Assembly: GCA_016219275.1 (NCBI GenBank) | Contig: JACRBM010000028.1 | Location: 1-64,000 of the forward strand | Direction: 5' to 3' | Origin: Chloroflexota bacterium | GTDB taxonomy: Bacteria; Chloroflexota; Anaerolineae; UBA4142 | Length of the DNA stretch: 64,000 nucleotides | In this document: positions 2,074-63,826 of the stretch, piece by piece | How the letters are laid out: each line of letters starts with the position of its first letter | Numbering within the stretch: position 1 is the stretch's first letter | Notes under the pieces: generated by a model | Told to the model about the DNA's origin: nothing | Database searches by the model: none | Seen by the model: the letters and a program-made list of their open reading frames with translations, nothing else | Position numbers and translations under genes: made by a program

Positions 2074-4053
2074 TTACTTCATCTCCGTCATACCGGCTGG
2101 CAATGAGCCGTTCAGGTCTTTGAGCGAGAGTTGCAACAGCGCGACCGAGCGTTTGAAATTGTGCATGGCTTGCGCCTTGCCTTCGTTGCCGTTGCCGGTG
2201 TCCGTGCCCCACATCACGCCGTAGACAAGGCGGAAGTTGAACCAGGCACTGCGAAGTTTCAAGTCCGCGCCTTGCGGTAAGGTGGCGTACGGATAGCCCG
2301 TGTCCACTTTCTTAAAGCCCTTGGCTTCCAAGGTCTTCCATACGACGTTCAGCAAGCCCTTGACTTCGTCTTGCACGCCTTCGGTCTTGCCGTTGCCGTC
2401 ATAGTCGGCTTTGGCGGTTAGGTTGAAACTCTTTTGATCGCCGTGGCACGACTTGCAGGACGCGGTGTAATCGAACTTGCCATCCGGGCTTTTGGTGTTG
2501 AATGAGTGTCCACCGACTTTGTCATAGTTCGCATCTTTTTGATCGCTGATGGGCGCCCACATGTGGCATGCGACGCACGGACCCGGAATGTTACCCTTGG
2601 TGTCTGCCGGCGAACTCCACAGGAACTTGGCGACATCAGGATTCTTGACCGCGTCGTAAGCGGGGTTCGCGACGGGCGCAACGCCAACGATTGTACCATG
2701 CGGCGAGTTCGGTACGGTCGCGCCGTAGGTAACGCCGCCGGTGTCGCTGATCAATTCCGCGATGCTACTATAGTGCGGGGTGCTTGTGGATGTGCCAGCA
2801 GCAAATGCTTCCGAGCTGACGCGGCTGTTGTGGCATTCAAAGCAGGTTGCCGAGAGACCGACTTCCTTGGTCACTTTGAACGGCAAGCCGACAAGTTGCG
2901 CGGTGCCGCTGATACGCAATTGCCACGCGTTCTTGTCGTCGTGCGGATCGTGGCAGGTCGCGCAAGAGATTGTTTGCTTTTCGTTTTCCCAGGCGGCAGG
3001 GTTGGTCGGGTTCTTGGTAAAGGTCACATAGCCCGCGCCTGAGTGGCAACGCACGCACGCTTGCTCGCCGATGCCTTCAATCGCGAAGGCGGGCGAGGTG
3101 CGATCGGCGTGACCGGCGTTCTTGAGTTGTTCGCCCTTGTCGTGGCGGCTCGAACCATTGTGGCAGATATTGCACACGCCTTCGTTAAAGCTGGTTGCCA
3201 TCGTGGCTTCACCCTTGACGTGTCCACCGGCAGGACCATGGCATTGTTCGCATTGAATGTTCGCCATGTTTTTGACGGGAGCGGGTGCTTTGTCCCAGTT
3301 GCCACCGGCTTCGATTTCTTTCCAGGTTGGCATCTTCCAGCCGGCTTTGGTTGCCGCATCTTTGAATCCACCACTGCCCGCGCCGACGGGGGGCACAAAG
3401 TAACCCGTCACGTGACACGACACACAACTTTCAGTATAGTGCGTGGGCTTGACATCAATTTCTTCGGTAAAGATTTTGGCGTGACCGGTTTTCTTCCATT
3501 CGACGACCTTGGTCGCGTGGCAGGTTTCGCACTTGCCATCGGTTATGCCGACGAACGTGTTCGCGTACACGCGCACGCCGCCCACTTCACCGCCGCCACC
3601 CAGGTTGCAAGTGACGGCGAACCAACCGACCACATCGGGCGTGAACTTGGTTTGCTTGGTGTTGGTGAACGCAAGTGTCGCTTTGGATTCCGCCGGTTTG
3701 ATCAACGACCACGCAGGCTTGCCAGGATTTTTGGCGTCATCCGATACGCACTGCGCGGTGACGGGCACATTGATCGGAACGTTATTCAAACCGGTCGTGC
3801 CCATCGCGATGGTGAGGTTGTACTCGCCCACCGCAGTGTCGGTCACGGTTTTGATCGTGCCGGTGATGACGTTTGGATCTTTGGTCGCGTTTGCCGCGAC
3901 CGGAACGACGCTGACGACCGCGTTCGGCGGCTTGGGCGTCGGGGTTGGACCTTGCGCCGATACACTCTGCGGCGCGGACAACAGCATTAGCGCCGCAACG
4001 GCGATGAGCAAGGCAACCCCAGTGATCATGACGAGGGTCTTGATTTTGGACAT
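2074..4053 (-). CDS. Secreted nonaheme c-type cytochrome
   Basis: A 659-residue exported protein with nine CXXCH haem-binding motifs at residues 175, 210, 268, 294, 333, 364, 404, 493 and 533. The N-terminus is an uncleaved anchor or signal peptide (residues 7-34, ending SVSAQ). Residues 40-170 hold no haem motif and look like a beta-sandwich ahead of the haem domain, with a Gly-rich loop. The layout recalls cytochrome c554/DmsE-type multihaem electron carriers, which pass electrons outside the membrane; the terminal acceptor is not evident. The ATG at 4053 has GAGGAGA 5 nt upstream. An octaheme cytochrome lies upstream on the same strand, but a terminator and a separate leader lie between, so the two are probably independently transcribed and co-regulated. 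Confidence 0.9.
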   Translation of the reverse strand: MSKIKTLVMITGVALLIAVAALMLLSAPQSVSAQGPTPTPKPPNAVVSVVPVAANATKDPNVITGTIKTVTDTAVGEYNLTIAMGTTGLNNVPINVPVTAQCVSDDAKNPGKPAWSLIKPAESKATLAFTNTKQTKFTPDVVGWFAVTCNLGGGGEVGGVRVYANTFVGITDGKCETCHATKVVEWKKTGHAKIFTEEIDVKPTHYTESCVSCHVTGYFVPPVGAGSGGFKDAATKAGWKMPTWKEIEAGGNWDKAPAPVKNMANIQCEQCHGPAGGHVKGEATMATSFNEGVCNICHNGSSRHDKGEQLKNAGHADRTSPAFAIEGIGEQACVRCHSGAGYVTFTKNPTNPAAWENEKQTISCATCHDPHDDKNAWQLRISGTAQLVGLPFKVTKEVGLSATCFECHNSRVSSEAFAAGTSTSTPHYSSIAELISDTGGVTYGATVPNSPHGTIVGVAPVANPAYDAVKNPDVAKFLWSSPADTKGNIPGPCVACHMWAPISDQKDANYDKVGGHSFNTKSPDGKFDYTASCKSCHGDQKSFNLTAKADYDGNGKTEGVQDEVKGLLNVVWKTLEAKGFKKVDTGYPYATLPQGADLKLRSAWFNFRLVYGVMWGTDTGNGNEGKAQAMHNFKRSVALLQLSLKDLNGSLPAGMTEMK

Positions 4054-4124
4054 GTGATCTCCTCACTGAGAGTAAATTGGGTTATCCGATTGACGTCTGT
4101 AGTCGGGATTGCTTCCTCTCCACT

Positions 4125-4170
4125 CCTCCTTTCGATTGCCAAGCGCGTCAGGGCATTCCCTCGTCAGAAT
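4125..4170 (-). promoter_or_regulatory. Structured 5' leader motif, copy 1 (nonaheme cytochrome)
   Basis: On the minus strand ATTC-TGACGAGG-GAAT (4170-4155) forms a 4-bp stem with an 8-nt loop, extended by GTC/GAC and then GCG/CGC pairs. About 21 nt later comes GAAAGGAGG (4133-4125). The same loop and the same GAAAGGAGG occur before the octaheme cytochrome gene, with a compensatory change at the outermost pair of the upper stem. The motif ends about 70 nt before the ATG. I do not recognise it as a known riboswitch class. Confidence 0.5.
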
Positions 4171-4427
4171 GACCGCGACATTCTTGCCAGTATTTCGTCC
4201 AGCATCGGACGGTACGCACAGTGGTGCGTTTGAGCCGCAAACAAAAACGCGTCTCGTTTGCACGCGAATCATGCTCGCGCGCGCCATGACGAGACGCTCG
4301 GAAAATGCAACGGGCGCGACATTCGTCGTCGCGCTCAAATCACACACTTGCTCATATCCGAATATAACAAGCAGGAGTTCAAAAGTCAAATTCAGTCTGG
4401 TCAAAGAATGGTCAAAAGCGCGCGAAA

Positions 4428-4457
4428 AACGGGTCGAGCGGACTCGCTCGACCCGTT
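4428..4457 (-). terminator. Rho-independent terminator of the octaheme cytochrome gene
   Basis: AACGGGTCGAG (4428-4438) and CTCGACCCGTT (4447-4457) form an 11-bp perfect stem. On the minus strand it is followed by TTTTT, within 50 nt of the stop codon at 4479. This is a textbook intrinsic terminator, and it uncouples the two cytochrome genes. Confidence 0.8.
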
Positions 4458-4478
4458 GGGAGACTCGCCAGGGGAGGG

Positions 4479-5645
4479 CTATTTCGGGGCGTGATAGTTC
4501 TTGGCTTTGGCTTTCAATTCGTCGTTGGTTTTGACGCTTGCTTTGCCGCCTTGAACATGGCACGACTTGCACGCAAAGTCGAGCGTGATTTGCGAAACGA
4601 CTGCCTTGCCATCCGACGTGAATTGGGCGGTGGCTTCCGGATCAATCGCGAACATGTGCACGCGAATGTCGCCTACAAACTTGGCGGCATCCACGGACGC
4701 GCTCGAACCGATCATGCGCGGCATGTGGCAATCCGCGCACGCGACCTTGATCGCGAGGTGCGCGGCAGACGCTTGATTGCGCGCTTCCTTAAAGTGGCAG
4801 TTCTCGCACAACGTGCGCGTCGTTTGCTTGTTCGCTTGACGCAAGTGCACGACGCCTTGATGCGGATTGTGGCAATCCACGCACTTGAGCGAGAGGTGCT
4901 TGCTTTGATAGAATTCTTCGTACTGTTCGTGGTGATCTATCAAACCGCTCTTTGCATCAATGACCGTGATGTCGCTACGGCGGTGACACTTGCCGCACAA
5001 CTCCGGATCGCGATCCACTTTCAGCGCGACGCCGTAGGGATTCGCGGCGTGCAAACTGCCGGGACCGTGACACGCTTCGCACTGGATCCCAGTTTCACTC
5101 CACGTGCCGACGATGCCAGGCAGATTGTCCTGACTGCCGGTCGGCTTGTAACCGGTCGTGTGGCAGGTACCGCAATCGTACTTCAAGTTCTTAGTGCCAG
5201 AGTTGTACTTGCTCCACGCCGCGTCTTTGCCAGCCGCGGGGTTGGTAAAGTTCCACTGGTTCAAATAATTCGTATCGCTGACGGTCGCGCCGGGTTTGTC
5301 TGTGATGATGTAACCCTGTTTATCCATAAAGCGATACTTCCAGTTGTAGCCGCCGATGACGTACGAAATGTCATTCCAGGTATATCCTTCTGGAAGTTTT
5401 TCGATTTTGGTAAAGGGCAGCGTGGGCGGTTTGCCATCTACGACCTTGTTCACTTTCCACGGGTGTCCCGATTTCATAAACGTGTCGTAGATGCCTTGAT
5501 GACAGGTCTTGCAGGTTTCCGATTTGACGTATGTTGCGCCAAATGCCGGTCCCTGCGCGTCCGTCGGAAGTGCGAACAAGATTCCCGCGATGGTCAGAGT
5601 GACAATCGCGGAAATCAGAACGACGAGGGTTCTTGTGAGATTCAT
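4479..5645 (-). CDS. Secreted octaheme c-type cytochrome
   Basis: A 388-residue exported protein with eight CXXCH motifs at residues 45, 158, 189, 217, 255, 280, 303 and 359. A signal or anchor helix covers residues 5-27. Phrases such as CGTCHTTGY and CEACHGPG are typical of cytochrome c554 and DmsE-like multihaem proteins. The gap between haems 1 and 2 (residues 50-157) contains an aromatic-rich segment (YVIGGYNWKYRF) that could form a substrate or partner surface. The ATG at 5645 follows GAGGAG by 7 nt. The gene is divergent from a NarX/NarL-like two-component pair that starts 380 bp away, which suggests control by that pair. Electron transfer is a safe role; a specific reductase activity cannot be read from sequence. 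Confidence 0.9.
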   Translation of the reverse strand: MNLTRTLVVLISAIVTLTIAGILFALPTDAQGPAFGATYVKSETCKTCHQGIYDTFMKSGHPWKVNKVVDGKPPTLPFTKIEKLPEGYTWNDISYVIGGYNWKYRFMDKQGYIITDKPGATVSDTNYLNQWNFTNPAAGKDAAWSKYNSGTKNLKYDCGTCHTTGYKPTGSQDNLPGIVGTWSETGIQCEACHGPGSLHAANPYGVALKVDRDPELCGKCHRRSDITVIDAKSGLIDHHEQYEEFYQSKHLSLKCVDCHNPHQGVVHLRQANKQTTRTLCENCHFKEARNQASAAHLAIKVACADCHMPRMIGSSASVDAAKFVGDIRVHMFAIDPEATAQFTSDGKAVVSQITLDFACKSCHVQGGKASVKTNDELKAKAKNYHAPK

Positions 5646-5710
5646 TAGAGTTCTCCTCTTTGATTTTGACTCATCCGCTCAATCGAACGAACCGGTGTAG
5701 TTGGGGCATG

Positions 5711-5748
5711 CCTCCTTTCTATGCGCCACAGGGTTCCCTCGTCAGAAC
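5711..5748 (-). promoter_or_regulatory. Structured 5' leader motif, copy 2 (octaheme cytochrome)
   Basis: On the minus strand GTTC-TGACGAGG-GAAC (5748-5733) forms the upper stem and the conserved 8-nt loop. GCGCCA (5754-5749) pairs with TGGCGC (5728-5723) across a 4-nt bulge. GAAAGGAGG follows 12 nt later (5719-5711). The G-C closing pair replaces the A-T pair of copy 1, and the lower stem is kept with a different sequence, which favours RNA structure over a simple repeat. The motif sits about 70-90 nt upstream of the ATG. Confidence 0.5.
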
Positions 5749-5926
5749 TGGCGCGCGTGGTCCTGCGTCTTCTCGGGGCGCGCGCAAATAAAAAACGTCG
5801 CGATGAAACGCGCGCGCAATTCGCGCAAACGCCGCATCAGGACGTTGGGGGACGCAGAGAAAACGAAATGCCTTCCTCGGCATCGCGTTCTCATCGCAGT
5901 TTAATGTAACTCGCGGTGTGGGGGTA

Positions 5927-5940
5927 GGGACAAGTGTCCC
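5927..5940. promoter_or_regulatory. Candidate operator palindrome
   Basis: GGGACA-AG-TGTCCC is a perfect 6+6 inverted repeat in the divergent region between the octaheme cytochrome and the two-component genes. Position alone suggests a regulator binding site. The palindrome is short and could be chance in GC-rich DNA. Confidence 0.25.
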
Positions 5941-6026
5941 GCTTATTTTGCCGTTTTGTCCCGGCGCCGCGCGGCGTTTGCTCAATTTGCATTCGTGCGT
6001 TAAAATAATTGTATCGGTGGTGACTG

Positions 6027-7445
6027 GTGGGCGAATTCTTTCAACTCAATCGCGAGATTGTATTTTTCATATACGGTCAGGCGTTCTTTGTGCTGGGCTT
6101 GGCGGTCGCGCTGCAATCGTTCAAGCATAGCGAGATCGCGTTGGCGCGACATCTGGGATTGCTCGCACTCTTTGGGATCGTGCACGGCGTCTACGAGTGG
6201 GGCGCGGTGTTCATTCCGATTCAACGCGCATATCTCTCCCCCGATGGAATCAACGCGCTCCGCTTGGTGCGTTTGCTCTTGGAAGCGATTTCGTTTTTTG
6301 CCTTGTTCCAGTTCGGCGTCGCGTTGAGCATGCCCAGCGCGCGCGCCGCGCCGCTGGGACTGTTTACGCTGTGGGCGCTGGTGGGCGCGGGCGCGCTCAT
6401 CGTCGCGCCAATGGACTGGACGGAATCGTTCGATCTCGGCGATATTCTCGCGCGCTACTTGCTCGGCGTGCCCGGCGCGTTTGCCGCCGCGTGGGGCTTG
6501 AACCTCCAAGCGCGCCAAGCGCAACGCATGAACCTCGCGCGCATCGCGCGCTATTTTCGCGGCGCGGCATTCGCGTTCGCGGGGTACGGATTTCTCTGCG
6601 CCATCACACCGCGCGCGAATTTTTTCCCGGCATCGGTCCTGAATTACGATCTGTTCAATCAAAACCTGGGTGTCTCCGCCGCCGTCTTTCGCGCGCTGTG
6701 CGGCATTTCGATCGCGTACCTCATCATTCGCGGCTTGGAAATTTTCAGCGTCGAGACGGAGCACCAGTTGGAAGAAGCCGCGCAAACGCGCGCGGTCTCG
6801 GCGGACCGCGAGCGGATCGGGCGCGAACTCCACGATGGCATCATTCAAGCGTTGTACGGCGCGGGGCTAATGCTCGAAGATGCCGCGTTGTCGCTCGACG
6901 GGCACGCGCCGCCGGCGAAAGAAAAAATCAATCACGTCATCGGCATGTTGAATCAAACGATTCGCGACCTGCGTAGTTACATTCTCGACTTGCGGCGCGA
7001 GACCGGCGCGACCGATTGCGCCGCCGATCTCGGCGAACTCGCGCGCGCGTTTCGTTTGCAAACACTGGTTGACGCCGAGTTGCGCGTCATCGGTACGCGT
7101 CGCGATGAACTGACCACGGCGCAGAAAAAAGAAATGCTCGCGATTGCGCGTGAAGCATTGATCAACGTCGCCAAGCACGCGCGCGCCACGCGGGTCAACA
7201 TCACGTTGACGTACCTTCCAGACGCGGTCGAACTGCAAATCGCGGACAACGGCGTCGGCTGGCAGACCAAACCCAGTCCTGCGCCCGGGCAGGGACAGGG
7301 TTTGACGAATATGCGCGAACGCGCCGAGCTCATCGGCGCGCAGCTGGCGATTCAGGCAGAACCTAATCAGGGCACGATAGTGCGCGTGACGGCGCCGCTC
7401 ACGCGCCAGAAGGAACAGGATGGCGCTGCGAATTCTACTCGTTGA
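6027..7445 (+). CDS. NarX/LiaS-type sensor histidine kinase
   Basis: A 472-residue kinase. Residues 1-240 form about seven membrane segments (an MASE-like or 7TM sensor). The dimerisation domain has the HisKA_3 box with [15 protein letters not shown] (His near residue 270). A HATPase domain follows, with N ([10 protein letters not shown]), DNGVGW and [16 protein letters not shown] boxes. It autophosphorylates and passes phosphate to the response regulator encoded by the overlapping next gene. The GTG at 6027 gives the full first membrane helix, but the ribosome site is weak (GGTGGTGA). It is divergent from the octaheme cytochrome, which suggests a sensor of respiratory state. The signal is unknown. 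Confidence 0.88.
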
Positions 7446-8079
7446 CGATCACGAAGTTGTACGGATCGGTTTGCGAACTCTGCTCGCGCGCCACGCCGAT
7501 TTTGAAATCGTGGACGAAGCGTGTAACGCAATGCAAGCCATCGAAAAAGCGGCGCGGCTCAAGCCGGACGTGGCGTTGCTGGACATTCGCCTGCCCGATC
7601 AGAGCGGCATCGAAGCGTGTCGCGCGATCATCGCGCAATCGCCGCAGACGCGCGTGGTGATGCTTACGTCCTACGCCGAAGACGAAATGCTGTTCGATGC
7701 GATTGCCGCCGGCGCGTCGGGCTATGTGCTCAAACAAATCGGCAGTGGCGCGCTCGTGGACGCGCTGCTCGCGGTCGGGCGCGGCGAATCGTTGGTGGAT
7801 CCGACGTTGATGCAAAAAGTGTTTGCGCGCGTCCGCGAGACGGCGCGCCGCGCGGAGACGCACGCGTTCGCCAAATTGAACGAACAAGAAATCAAAATTC
7901 TCGCGCACATCGCGGCAGGCAAGACGAATCGCGAAATTGCTGCCGCCGTTTTCCTCAGCGAAAAGACTGTCCGCAATTATGTCAGCGCGATCCTCAGCAA
8001 ATTGAATCTCGCCACGCGCGCCCACGCCGCGGCGTACGCGGTGACACATCGCATCGGCGACTATGTGCGCGCGGAGTAG
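7420..8079 (+). CDS. NarL/LuxR-family response regulator
   Basis: A 219-residue regulator. The receiver has the acidic pair (LLVDDHE), phospho-acceptor Asp in [10 protein letters not shown] near residue 55, Thr in LTSYAE and Lys in VLKQIG. Residues 150-210 are a LuxR HTH ([20 protein letters not shown], then [17 protein letters not shown]). The start overlaps the kinase gene by 26 bp, so the two are translationally coupled. All residues needed for phosphorylation are present. Candidate targets are the divergent cytochrome genes, by position only. Confidence 0.93.
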
Positions 8080-63152: not shown

Positions 63153-63441
63153 TTGGTCGTGCGCCTAATGTCGAAACGCGCGCCCCGGCTTGATCGCAAC
63201 AGCCAACTCCAGCTAGGTATCCCGACGGCACCCAAAAGTGACGACTTACCGTTGCTGTCTTCCGACCCTGGCGGGATTTGCCGGCTTTTGCCGCGTCGGA
63301 CCCAACCTTCAACGCCACTTGTTGCGTTCAGTCCCGAAATGTGCGCCCCTCGAAAAGGCATTCAACCCCGCTGTAGCGGATTGCGGGTCAGCCGTCTTAC
63401 GACGGAGTCAGGGCACCGCTAGCTCCCCATCTAGCACGACC
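63153..63441 (-). ncRNA. ffs: Large bacterial SRP RNA (Alu and S domains)
   Basis: About 289 nt. The Alu half reads GTGCTAGATGGGGAGCTAGCGG, then CTGACCCGCAATCCGCTACAGCGGGG and GAATGCCTTTTCGAGG, closely resembling Bacillus scRNA. Domain IV has CCAGGGTCGGAAGACAGCAA with the conserved GGAAG tetraloop region. The ends pair (GGTCGTGC with GCACGACC). Strong promoter immediately upstream. The size and Alu domain mark the large type known from many Gram-positive-like bacteria and from Chloroflexota. The 3' end is followed by TTTT. Confidence 0.93.
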
Positions 63442-63447
63442 GCGCGT

Positions 63448-63476
63448 AGTGTATGCGAGAAAGAACAAAATGTCAA
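63448..63476 (-). promoter_or_regulatory. Sigma-70 promoter of the SRP RNA gene
   Basis: On the minus strand TTGACA (63476-63471), a 17-bp spacer and TACACT (63453-63448) lie with the expected start 7 nt upstream of the SRP RNA 5' end. Confidence 0.85.
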
Positions 63477-63480
63477 AACG

Positions 63481-63552
63481 CAGTCGCCAGTCCGCAGTAG
63501 ACAGTCGTCAGTAAGCGATTACTGATGACTGTCTACTGCGGACTGGCGACTG
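63481..63552. repeat. 34-bp tandem-repeat hairpin (CAGTCGCC units)
   Basis: CAGTCGCCAGTCCGCAGTAG... (63481-63514) is reverse-complemented at 63519-63552 with a single G-T wobble, loop 4 nt. The arm consists of 7-bp AGTnnnC units (AGTCGCC, AGTCCGC, AGTAGAC, AGTCGTC). One more unit (CAGTCGCCAG) appears at the very end of the window (63990-63999). It lies between the tRNA-Ser(GGA) gene and the SRP promoter, so it probably terminates the tRNA transcript. Confidence 0.88.
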
Positions 63553-63559
63553 ACATTAG

Positions 63560-63645
63560 CGGAGAGGGCGGGATTCGAACCCGCGAGGCTCATCACCTAC
63601 ACGCTTTCCAAGCGTGCGCACTAGGCCAAACTATGCGACCTCTCC
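63560..63645 (-). tRNA. tRNA-Ser (anticodon GGA)
   Basis: An 86-nt class II tRNA. Acceptor arms are GGAGAGG and CCTCTCC. The anticodon stem-loop is CACGCTTGGAAAGCGTG with GGA. A long variable arm follows and the T arm is GCGGGTTCGAATCCCGC. CCA is not encoded. It reads UCC/UCU. Confidence 0.95.
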
Positions 63646-63735
63646 AAGTTAGTGCAATAGTGCAATAGTTGATAAGTGCGATAGCTGAAAATCAACTAAC
63701 GCACTATTGCACTATTCAACTATTGCACTAGGTTC
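63646..63735. repeat. Tandem-repeat hairpin (TAGTGCAA units) between tRNA genes
   Basis: AGTTAGTGCAATAGTGCAATAGTTGATAAGTGCG faces CGCACTATTGCACTATTCAACTATTGCACTA. Units are about 9 bp and related to the TAGTGCGA units of 43981 and 34098. Confidence 0.8.
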
Positions 63736-63737
63736 AG

Positions 63738-63826
63738 CGGAGAGGGAGGGATTTGAACCCCCGGTAGCCTTGCGACCACACGCGATTTCGAGTCGCGCGC
63801 ACTAGACCGGACTATGCGACCTCTCC
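63738..63826 (-). tRNA. tRNA-Ser (anticodon CGA)
   Basis: An 89-nt class II tRNA with acceptor GGAGAGG/CCTCTCC, anticodon loop GCGACTCGAAATCGC (CGA) and T arm GGGGGTTCAAATCCCTC. CCA is not encoded. The D-arm half GGTCGCATAGT is identical to that of the neighbouring tRNA-Ser(GGA), suggesting local duplication. It reads UCG. Confidence 0.95.

Follow-up and report, generated by a model that had tools for sequence, protein, structure and literature searches.

A predicted long-range pairing between a leader hairpin and early codons in multihaem cytochrome mRNAs of one Anaerolineae family

Two genes for secreted multihaem cytochromes c lie on the minus strand of the 64,000-nucleotide stretch of Chloroflexota DNA analyzed here (the window), and their leaders share a hairpin whose role in the expression of these genes is the question raised by this locus. 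A preliminary description had read the shared element as a regulatory RNA or a translated short leader controlling haem-protein expression. As it had reported, the identical 8-nt loop TGACGAGG sits within an inverted repeat in both leaders (CATTC/GAATG in leader 1, GTTC/GAAC in leader 2), and the compensatory change that it saw in the upper stem is borne out by the fourth pair, which is A-T in one copy versus G-C in the other. The core TTCTGACGAGGGAA is exact at 4156-4169 and 5734-5747 (minus strand), and the element GAAAGGAGG, placed about 70 nt before the ATG, ends 71 nt upstream of it in leader 1 and 65 nt in leader 2. The remark that the leaders are otherwise unrelated is only partly right: each leader also contains an intrinsic-terminator hairpin, and CCTCGTC occurs in both genes 17 nt downstream of the A of the ATG. 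This complement of the loop within the coding sequence (CDS), absent from the preliminary description, is the most informative feature of the locus. The folding energy of either leader by itself is not unusual relative to shuffled sequence (z about 0); two copies by themselves therefore prove nothing, and it is the relatives that supply the proof. Leader 1 precedes cytochrome B and leader 2 precedes cytochrome A, with the following features:

2074-4053, minus strand: cytochrome B gene, an ORF for a 659-aa secreted multihaem cytochrome c (Pfam Cytochrome_C7, MtrC/MtrF domain II/IV)
4479-5645, minus strand: cytochrome A gene, an ORF for a 388-aa secreted multihaem cytochrome c with 8 CXXCH motifs (Pfam Cytochrome_C7, Paired_CXXCH_1, C554)
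4030-4036, minus strand: CDS site CCTCGTC, then A, of cytochrome B, the exact complement of the loop
5622-5628, minus strand: CDS site CCTCGTC of cytochrome A, the exact complement of loop bases GACGAGG
4059-4064, minus strand: real Shine-Dalgarno (SD) GAGGAG of cytochrome B, from the sequence
5653-5658, minus strand: real SD GAGGAG of cytochrome A, from the sequence
4125-4133, minus strand: GAAAGGAGG of leader 1, an extended SD-like element and proposed standby or decoy ribosome site
5711-5719, minus strand: GAAAGGAGG of leader 2, likewise
4145-4176, minus strand: hairpin P4 of leader 1, loop at 4159-4166, from folding and covariation over 26 copies
5723-5754, minus strand: hairpin P4 of leader 2, loop at 5737-5744, on the same basis
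4243-4298, minus strand: predicted intrinsic-terminator hairpin and T-run of leader 1, accessory, downstream of the promoter at 4361-4389
5786-5846, minus strand: predicted intrinsic-terminator hairpin and T-run of leader 2, accessory; the upstream gene is divergent
4361-4389, minus strand: predicted promoter of leader 1, of the sigma-70 type (TTGACT-17-TATATT), with transcription expected to begin near 4354
5898-5903, minus strand: putative -10 element TAAACT of leader 2, from a by-eye alignment with L028-L030 and L032, start expected near 5891

The element GAAAGGAGG is complementary to the 3′ tail typical of bacterial 16S rRNA. Both window terminators should lie inside the transcript, because the leader 1 promoter is upstream of its terminator and leader 2 has a divergent gene upstream of it. 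Most of the leaders checked have such a terminator (a predicted hairpin and T-run) upstream of P4, yet four copies without a clear one (L030, L031, L100, and L103) keep the hairpin, the AAGGAGG-like element, and the CDS site, which argues that the terminator is accessory.

Several further features were observed around the leaders. A second hairpin, P1, precedes the terminator (e.g. window 4314-4334, minus strand); its hexaloop is often GANGNN (GATGAA, GATGAT, GAGGTT) and resembles the P4 loop GACGAG. In many cytochrome B copies, a CAGACGCCAA-like element lies upstream of the SD (e.g. window about 4085-4093, minus strand), and its AGACGC complements, by eye, GCGTCT in the 5′ arm of the terminator. 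Cytochrome A promoters carry the palindrome GGGACA-NN-TGTCCC at an activator-like position (L002, L007, L029, and L031; window 5927-5962), and the putative leader 2 -10 element sits 23 nt after the palindrome GGGACACTTGTCCC (5927-5940). A divergent histidine kinase and LuxR/NarL-type response regulator (window 6027-8079, plus strand) are syntenic with cytochrome A across the family and are likely its transcriptional regulator. The bacterial large SRP RNA and two tRNA genes at 63157-63826 (minus strand) are ordinary.

Hairpin P4 and its distribution

The exact combination of TTCTGACGAGGGAA and GAAAGGAGG was present in 5 of the 14 genomes of the family, compared with 0 for a reversed-pattern control. 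When the two window proteins, rather than the motif, were used as queries across the order, the homologues of the family with a readable leader carried TGACGAGG with the single exception of L029, and the sister family was without it. Together, the protein and pattern searches gave 26 deduplicated copies. A covariance model, R1, was built from the hairpin alone and run on the genomes of the family, returning 29 strong matches well separated from noise (E no higher than 9e-4, next 0.02 and above); its training set consisted of TGACGAGG copies, and the model could miss other loops. Three copies were found through the hairpin model alone (G013:C21, G008:C19, and G005:C244), which brings the total to 29 distinct copies; every one of them comes from a single Anaerolineae family and precedes a multihaem cytochrome gene. 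Three cytochrome types carry the leader, namely the A and B types of the window and an OmcA/MtrC-type; two of the three new copies precede this third type, and a scan of one of these two gave TIGR03507, OmcA/MtrC family decaheme cytochrome, unlike A or B.

Among 301 genomes of the phylum, the combined pattern matched only the window's own genome. The few class-wide pattern matches outside the family were treated as chance; the reversed control gave 3. A contig scan over all phyla returned 13 stretches, nearly all of them from Anaerolineae/Chloroflexi MAGs such as UBA4826, and a Nitrospinota match was rejected, having no cytochrome downstream. The module looks like an innovation of one family. 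The exceptional homologue L029 (G008:C82), of the cytochrome A type, has the promoter palindrome and is without terminator, hairpin, and GAAAGGAGG; its CDS site has drifted to CCTCGTT, an apparent joint loss of leader and CDS site.

Across 26 copies, the P4 stem has a covariation score of 0.592 versus 0.304 when shuffled, a value reached in 0 of 500 shuffles. Paired stem cells amount to 88% versus 72.9%, doubly changed cells number 40 versus 14, and the signal is destroyed when the partner is slid by one column. While the stem covaries, the 8-nt loop is invariant, and RNAfold closes it to the hexaloop GACGAG. The AAGGAGG-like element ends 34-47 nt after the loop start in the copies compared. 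The protein, pattern, and covariance-model searches have yielded 27 copies beyond the two in the window, all before multihaem cytochromes, and the covariation test shows a stem whose pairing is kept by changes on both sides. Neither of the outcomes that the preliminary description had named as refuting it occurred, and its reading as a regulatory RNA for haem-protein expression is supported. The other possibility it raised, a translated short leader, was not supported: an ATG or GTG follows AAGGAGG within 1-3 nt in only slightly more than half of the copies, too close for normal initiation, and the reading frames that would follow GAAAGGAGG are, by inspection, dissimilar.

The loop complement in the coding sequence

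Going by the sequences, the new element is the complement of the loop, CCTCGTC(A), in the CDS of the leader-bearing genes. It is found at nt 14 or 17 after the start codon in 28 of 29 genes and is read in the frame xxC-CTC-GTC within the early codons of the signal peptide; the exception, L049, has CCTCATC, with one mismatch and a duplex of -6.4 kcal/mol. The loop-site duplex is -12.3 kcal/mol in 24 of 29 copies. The seven columns of the site are at or near 2 bits, and most of their neighbors are well below. The site is also present in all three copies that only the hairpin model detected, two of which precede OmcA/MtrC-type genes; this is an independent test of the link between loop and CDS. 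The distance from loop to ATG varies from 87 to 154 nt, and that from loop to site irregularly from 104 to 171 nt, while the site keeps a fixed place relative to the ATG, as expected if the initiation region is what matters.

Could these codons be conserved for reasons other than RNA pairing? A DNA operator, or signal-peptide codons inherited in a GC-rich genome, would fit the origin of all copies in one family, and CTC and GTC are common codons. However, at frequencies of 0.36 and 0.47, respectively, and with sites picked by regular expression, CTC is used in 26 of 26 cases (9.2 expected) and GTC in 25 of 26 (12.3 expected); the preceding residue is variable (T, S, I, N, F, or V), and its codon ends in C in 26 of 26 (14.6 expected). 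The (C)CTCGTC spelling serves just 6 of 156 LV dipeptides in window ORFs, and for other 7-mers of the leaders a complement was found in these coding starts in 6 of 2572 cases. Leaderless homologues do not use the site: CCTCGTC is present in 1 of 30, at a different position; this one, with the site at nt 29, is among 24 leaderless class orthologues of cytochrome A, from other families, none of which has TGACGAGG. Comparing copies with the leader and homologues without it gives a Fisher p of about 1.5e-14, relatedness being ignored; none of these statistics takes account of phylogeny, a concern reduced by the three cytochrome types and their divergent signal peptides. With a stem that covaries around a fixed loop and an irregular loop-site spacing as well, an explanation without RNA pairing is very improbable.

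Pairing between the loop and the CDS is strongly supported by this comparison. When the ensemble is computed without pseudoknots, the main partner of the site is the P4 loop (mean 0.52), and pairing of the site with the SD is rare (0.014). In this nested ensemble, pairing between site and loop is in competition with the P4 stem, and the two pairings may, according to the model, alternate rather than form a pseudoknot. The predicted accessibility of the CDS site is not out of the ordinary (0.22 unpaired versus 0.36), and no compensatory double change of loop and CDS was seen among the copies, in which both sides are nearly invariant. In 24 class orthologues of other families, loop-CDS complements showed no excess over shuffled pairs (4 versus 4.6).

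In the sister family f2, where CCTCGTC is found in 0 of 5 homologues, the cytochrome B homologues (L037, L038, L039, L045, and L046) have a different conserved leader. In all 5 of these copies, GGTTTGCC of the leader is the exact complement of GGCAAACC, which is located between the SD and the ATG, and GGAAAGRGGTGA-like elements lie 88-90 nt before the ATG; there is no convincing Rfam match. The sister family seems to use another leader with its own complement of the ribosome-binding site (RBS), and the design may therefore have arisen more than once.

A proposed switch and its alternatives

We propose that the 5′ leader of these multihaem cytochrome mRNAs acts as a cis-acting long-range pseudoknot switch, a reading to which we assign a probability of roughly 0.6. 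P4 would present the 8-nt loop UGACGAGG, and within the same mRNA 7 or 8 bases of this loop would pair with CCUCGUC(A), around codons 5-8. The resulting H-type pseudoknot would consist of a P4 stem of about 5-8 bp and a loop-CDS helix of 7 bp, with one U left to cross and a connecting loop of ~100 nt that encloses AAAGGAGG, the real SD, and the start codon. In the closed form, the start region would be held non-productive close to the side at which mRNA enters the 30S subunit, lowering translation in an "entrapment"-like manner, with AAAGGAGG as a putative standby or decoy ribosome site, and a signal or protein would shift the closed form to the open form. The terminator upstream of P4 in most leaders may constitute a second, transcriptional checkpoint. 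The hairpin, the invariant loop, the conserved CDS complement, and their joint presence or absence are supported by the copies compared, in 28 of 29 of which the leader hairpin loop is complementary to a downstream sequence so as to take in the RBS and start codon, an arrangement of the operator type. A repressed closed state is favored by analogy with the rpsO and alpha operons.

The sign could be reversed, as the leader pseudoknots of tisB and timP are needed for translation (PMC7708055, PMC11228461). Closing would then turn translation on, either through standby loading with AAAGGAGG, which is SD-like, has no usable start codon, and lies 65-71 nt upstream of the starts of the window genes, or by keeping the anti-SD-like CCTC off the SD, with which it can pair weakly through GAGG. 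We consider this unlikely, given that SD-site pairing is rare in the ensemble, that the partner, unlike in tisB, is located past the start codon, roughly at the place where the 30S subunit must thread the mRNA, and that the leaderless L029 keeps an ordinary RBS. Less likely still, the loop is the site of a trans-acting factor, either an sRNA or an RNA-binding protein, for example an ANTAR regulator; the leader would then chiefly attenuate at the terminator, and the CDS site would be a second target of this system instead of a partner of the loop. Such a factor would account for the terminator in most leaders, the GACGAG hexaloop of P4, and the upstream hairpin, often with a GANG hexaloop, and three ANTAR proteins are encoded in the genome. 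However, the ANTAR features of an A at loop position 1, a short linker, and both hairpins before the terminator (PMC3369931) are lacking here, copies without a clear terminator keep the hairpin and CDS site, and the exact loop complementarity of the CDS motif would be left unexplained.

More tentatively, and at somewhat less than even odds, the cis-acting switch may belong to a lineage-specific riboregulator of extracellular-electron-transfer cytochromes, in which the loop, together with its exact complement among signal-peptide codons that otherwise differ, forms a long-range pseudoknot in the mRNA and thereby fixes part of the N-terminal sequence of the proteins, one module serving three cytochrome types, in cis or by cross-pairing, in response to a redox or haem signal. 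Residues of the signal peptide (x-L-V-I/M) appear to be set by a constraint on the RNA, and the structured leader RNA combines clean covariation with a clear target. Leader-to-CDS pairing would add translational control to the extracellular respiration of uncultured Chloroflexota, for which no description of such regulation was found in the literature searched; it looks like a previously undescribed translation switch for extracellular-respiration proteins.

Comparison with known systems

No leader matched any of the Rfam 15 covariance models, which include GEMM riboswitches and ribosomal-protein leaders, at the gathering score, and at E up to 5 there was one meaningless sRNA match, inside the coding region. 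The poor fit to GEMM-I noted in the preliminary description is consistent with this result. GEMM-I riboswitches precede cytochrome genes in Geobacter (PMC6456294); the present RNA is likewise a structured leader ahead of multihaem cytochrome genes but differs in both sequence and structure. A hammerhead ribozyme, suggested by CUGACGA...GAAA, was rejected: the core geometry, in which stem II closes immediately ahead of GAAA and stems I and III complete the fold, is absent, the spacer is variable, and many copies are without GAAA, in addition to the missing Rfam match.

ANTAR-target RNAs carry a pair of hexaloops, each with an A in position 1 and a G in position 4, on tandem hairpins 5-12 nt apart and upstream of a terminator (PMC3369931). 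The leaders resemble them in their hairpins with hexaloops, the G at position 4, the terminator, and the presence of ANTAR proteins in the genome. As antiterminators of this class they were rejected, since position 1 of the P4 loop GACGAG is a G in every copy, and the terminator separates the two hairpins, which lie far from each other.

In tisB and timP, a leader pseudoknot accompanies upstream ribosome standby. The cytochrome leaders share the loop-based pseudoknot, as predicted, and a putative ribosome site upstream of the real RBS, here the conserved AAAGGAGG. However, the pseudoknot of tisB and timP lies in the 5′ UTR, whereas the partner proposed for the cytochrome leaders belongs to the coding sequence, and these leaders have no known antitoxin sRNA.

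A close parallel in design is provided by the E. coli rpsO (S15) pseudoknot, whose loop embraces the SD and start codon, as proposed here, together with the alpha-operon (S4) operator and ribosome "entrapment" (PMC10931766): in each, a leader pseudoknot takes in the ribosome-binding site. Unlike those operons, the cytochrome leaders involve no ribosomal protein gene and no Rfam match, and they are set apart by an 8-nt loop fully complementary to about codons 5-8, a connecting loop of about 100 nt, an extra SD-like site, and an upstream terminator.
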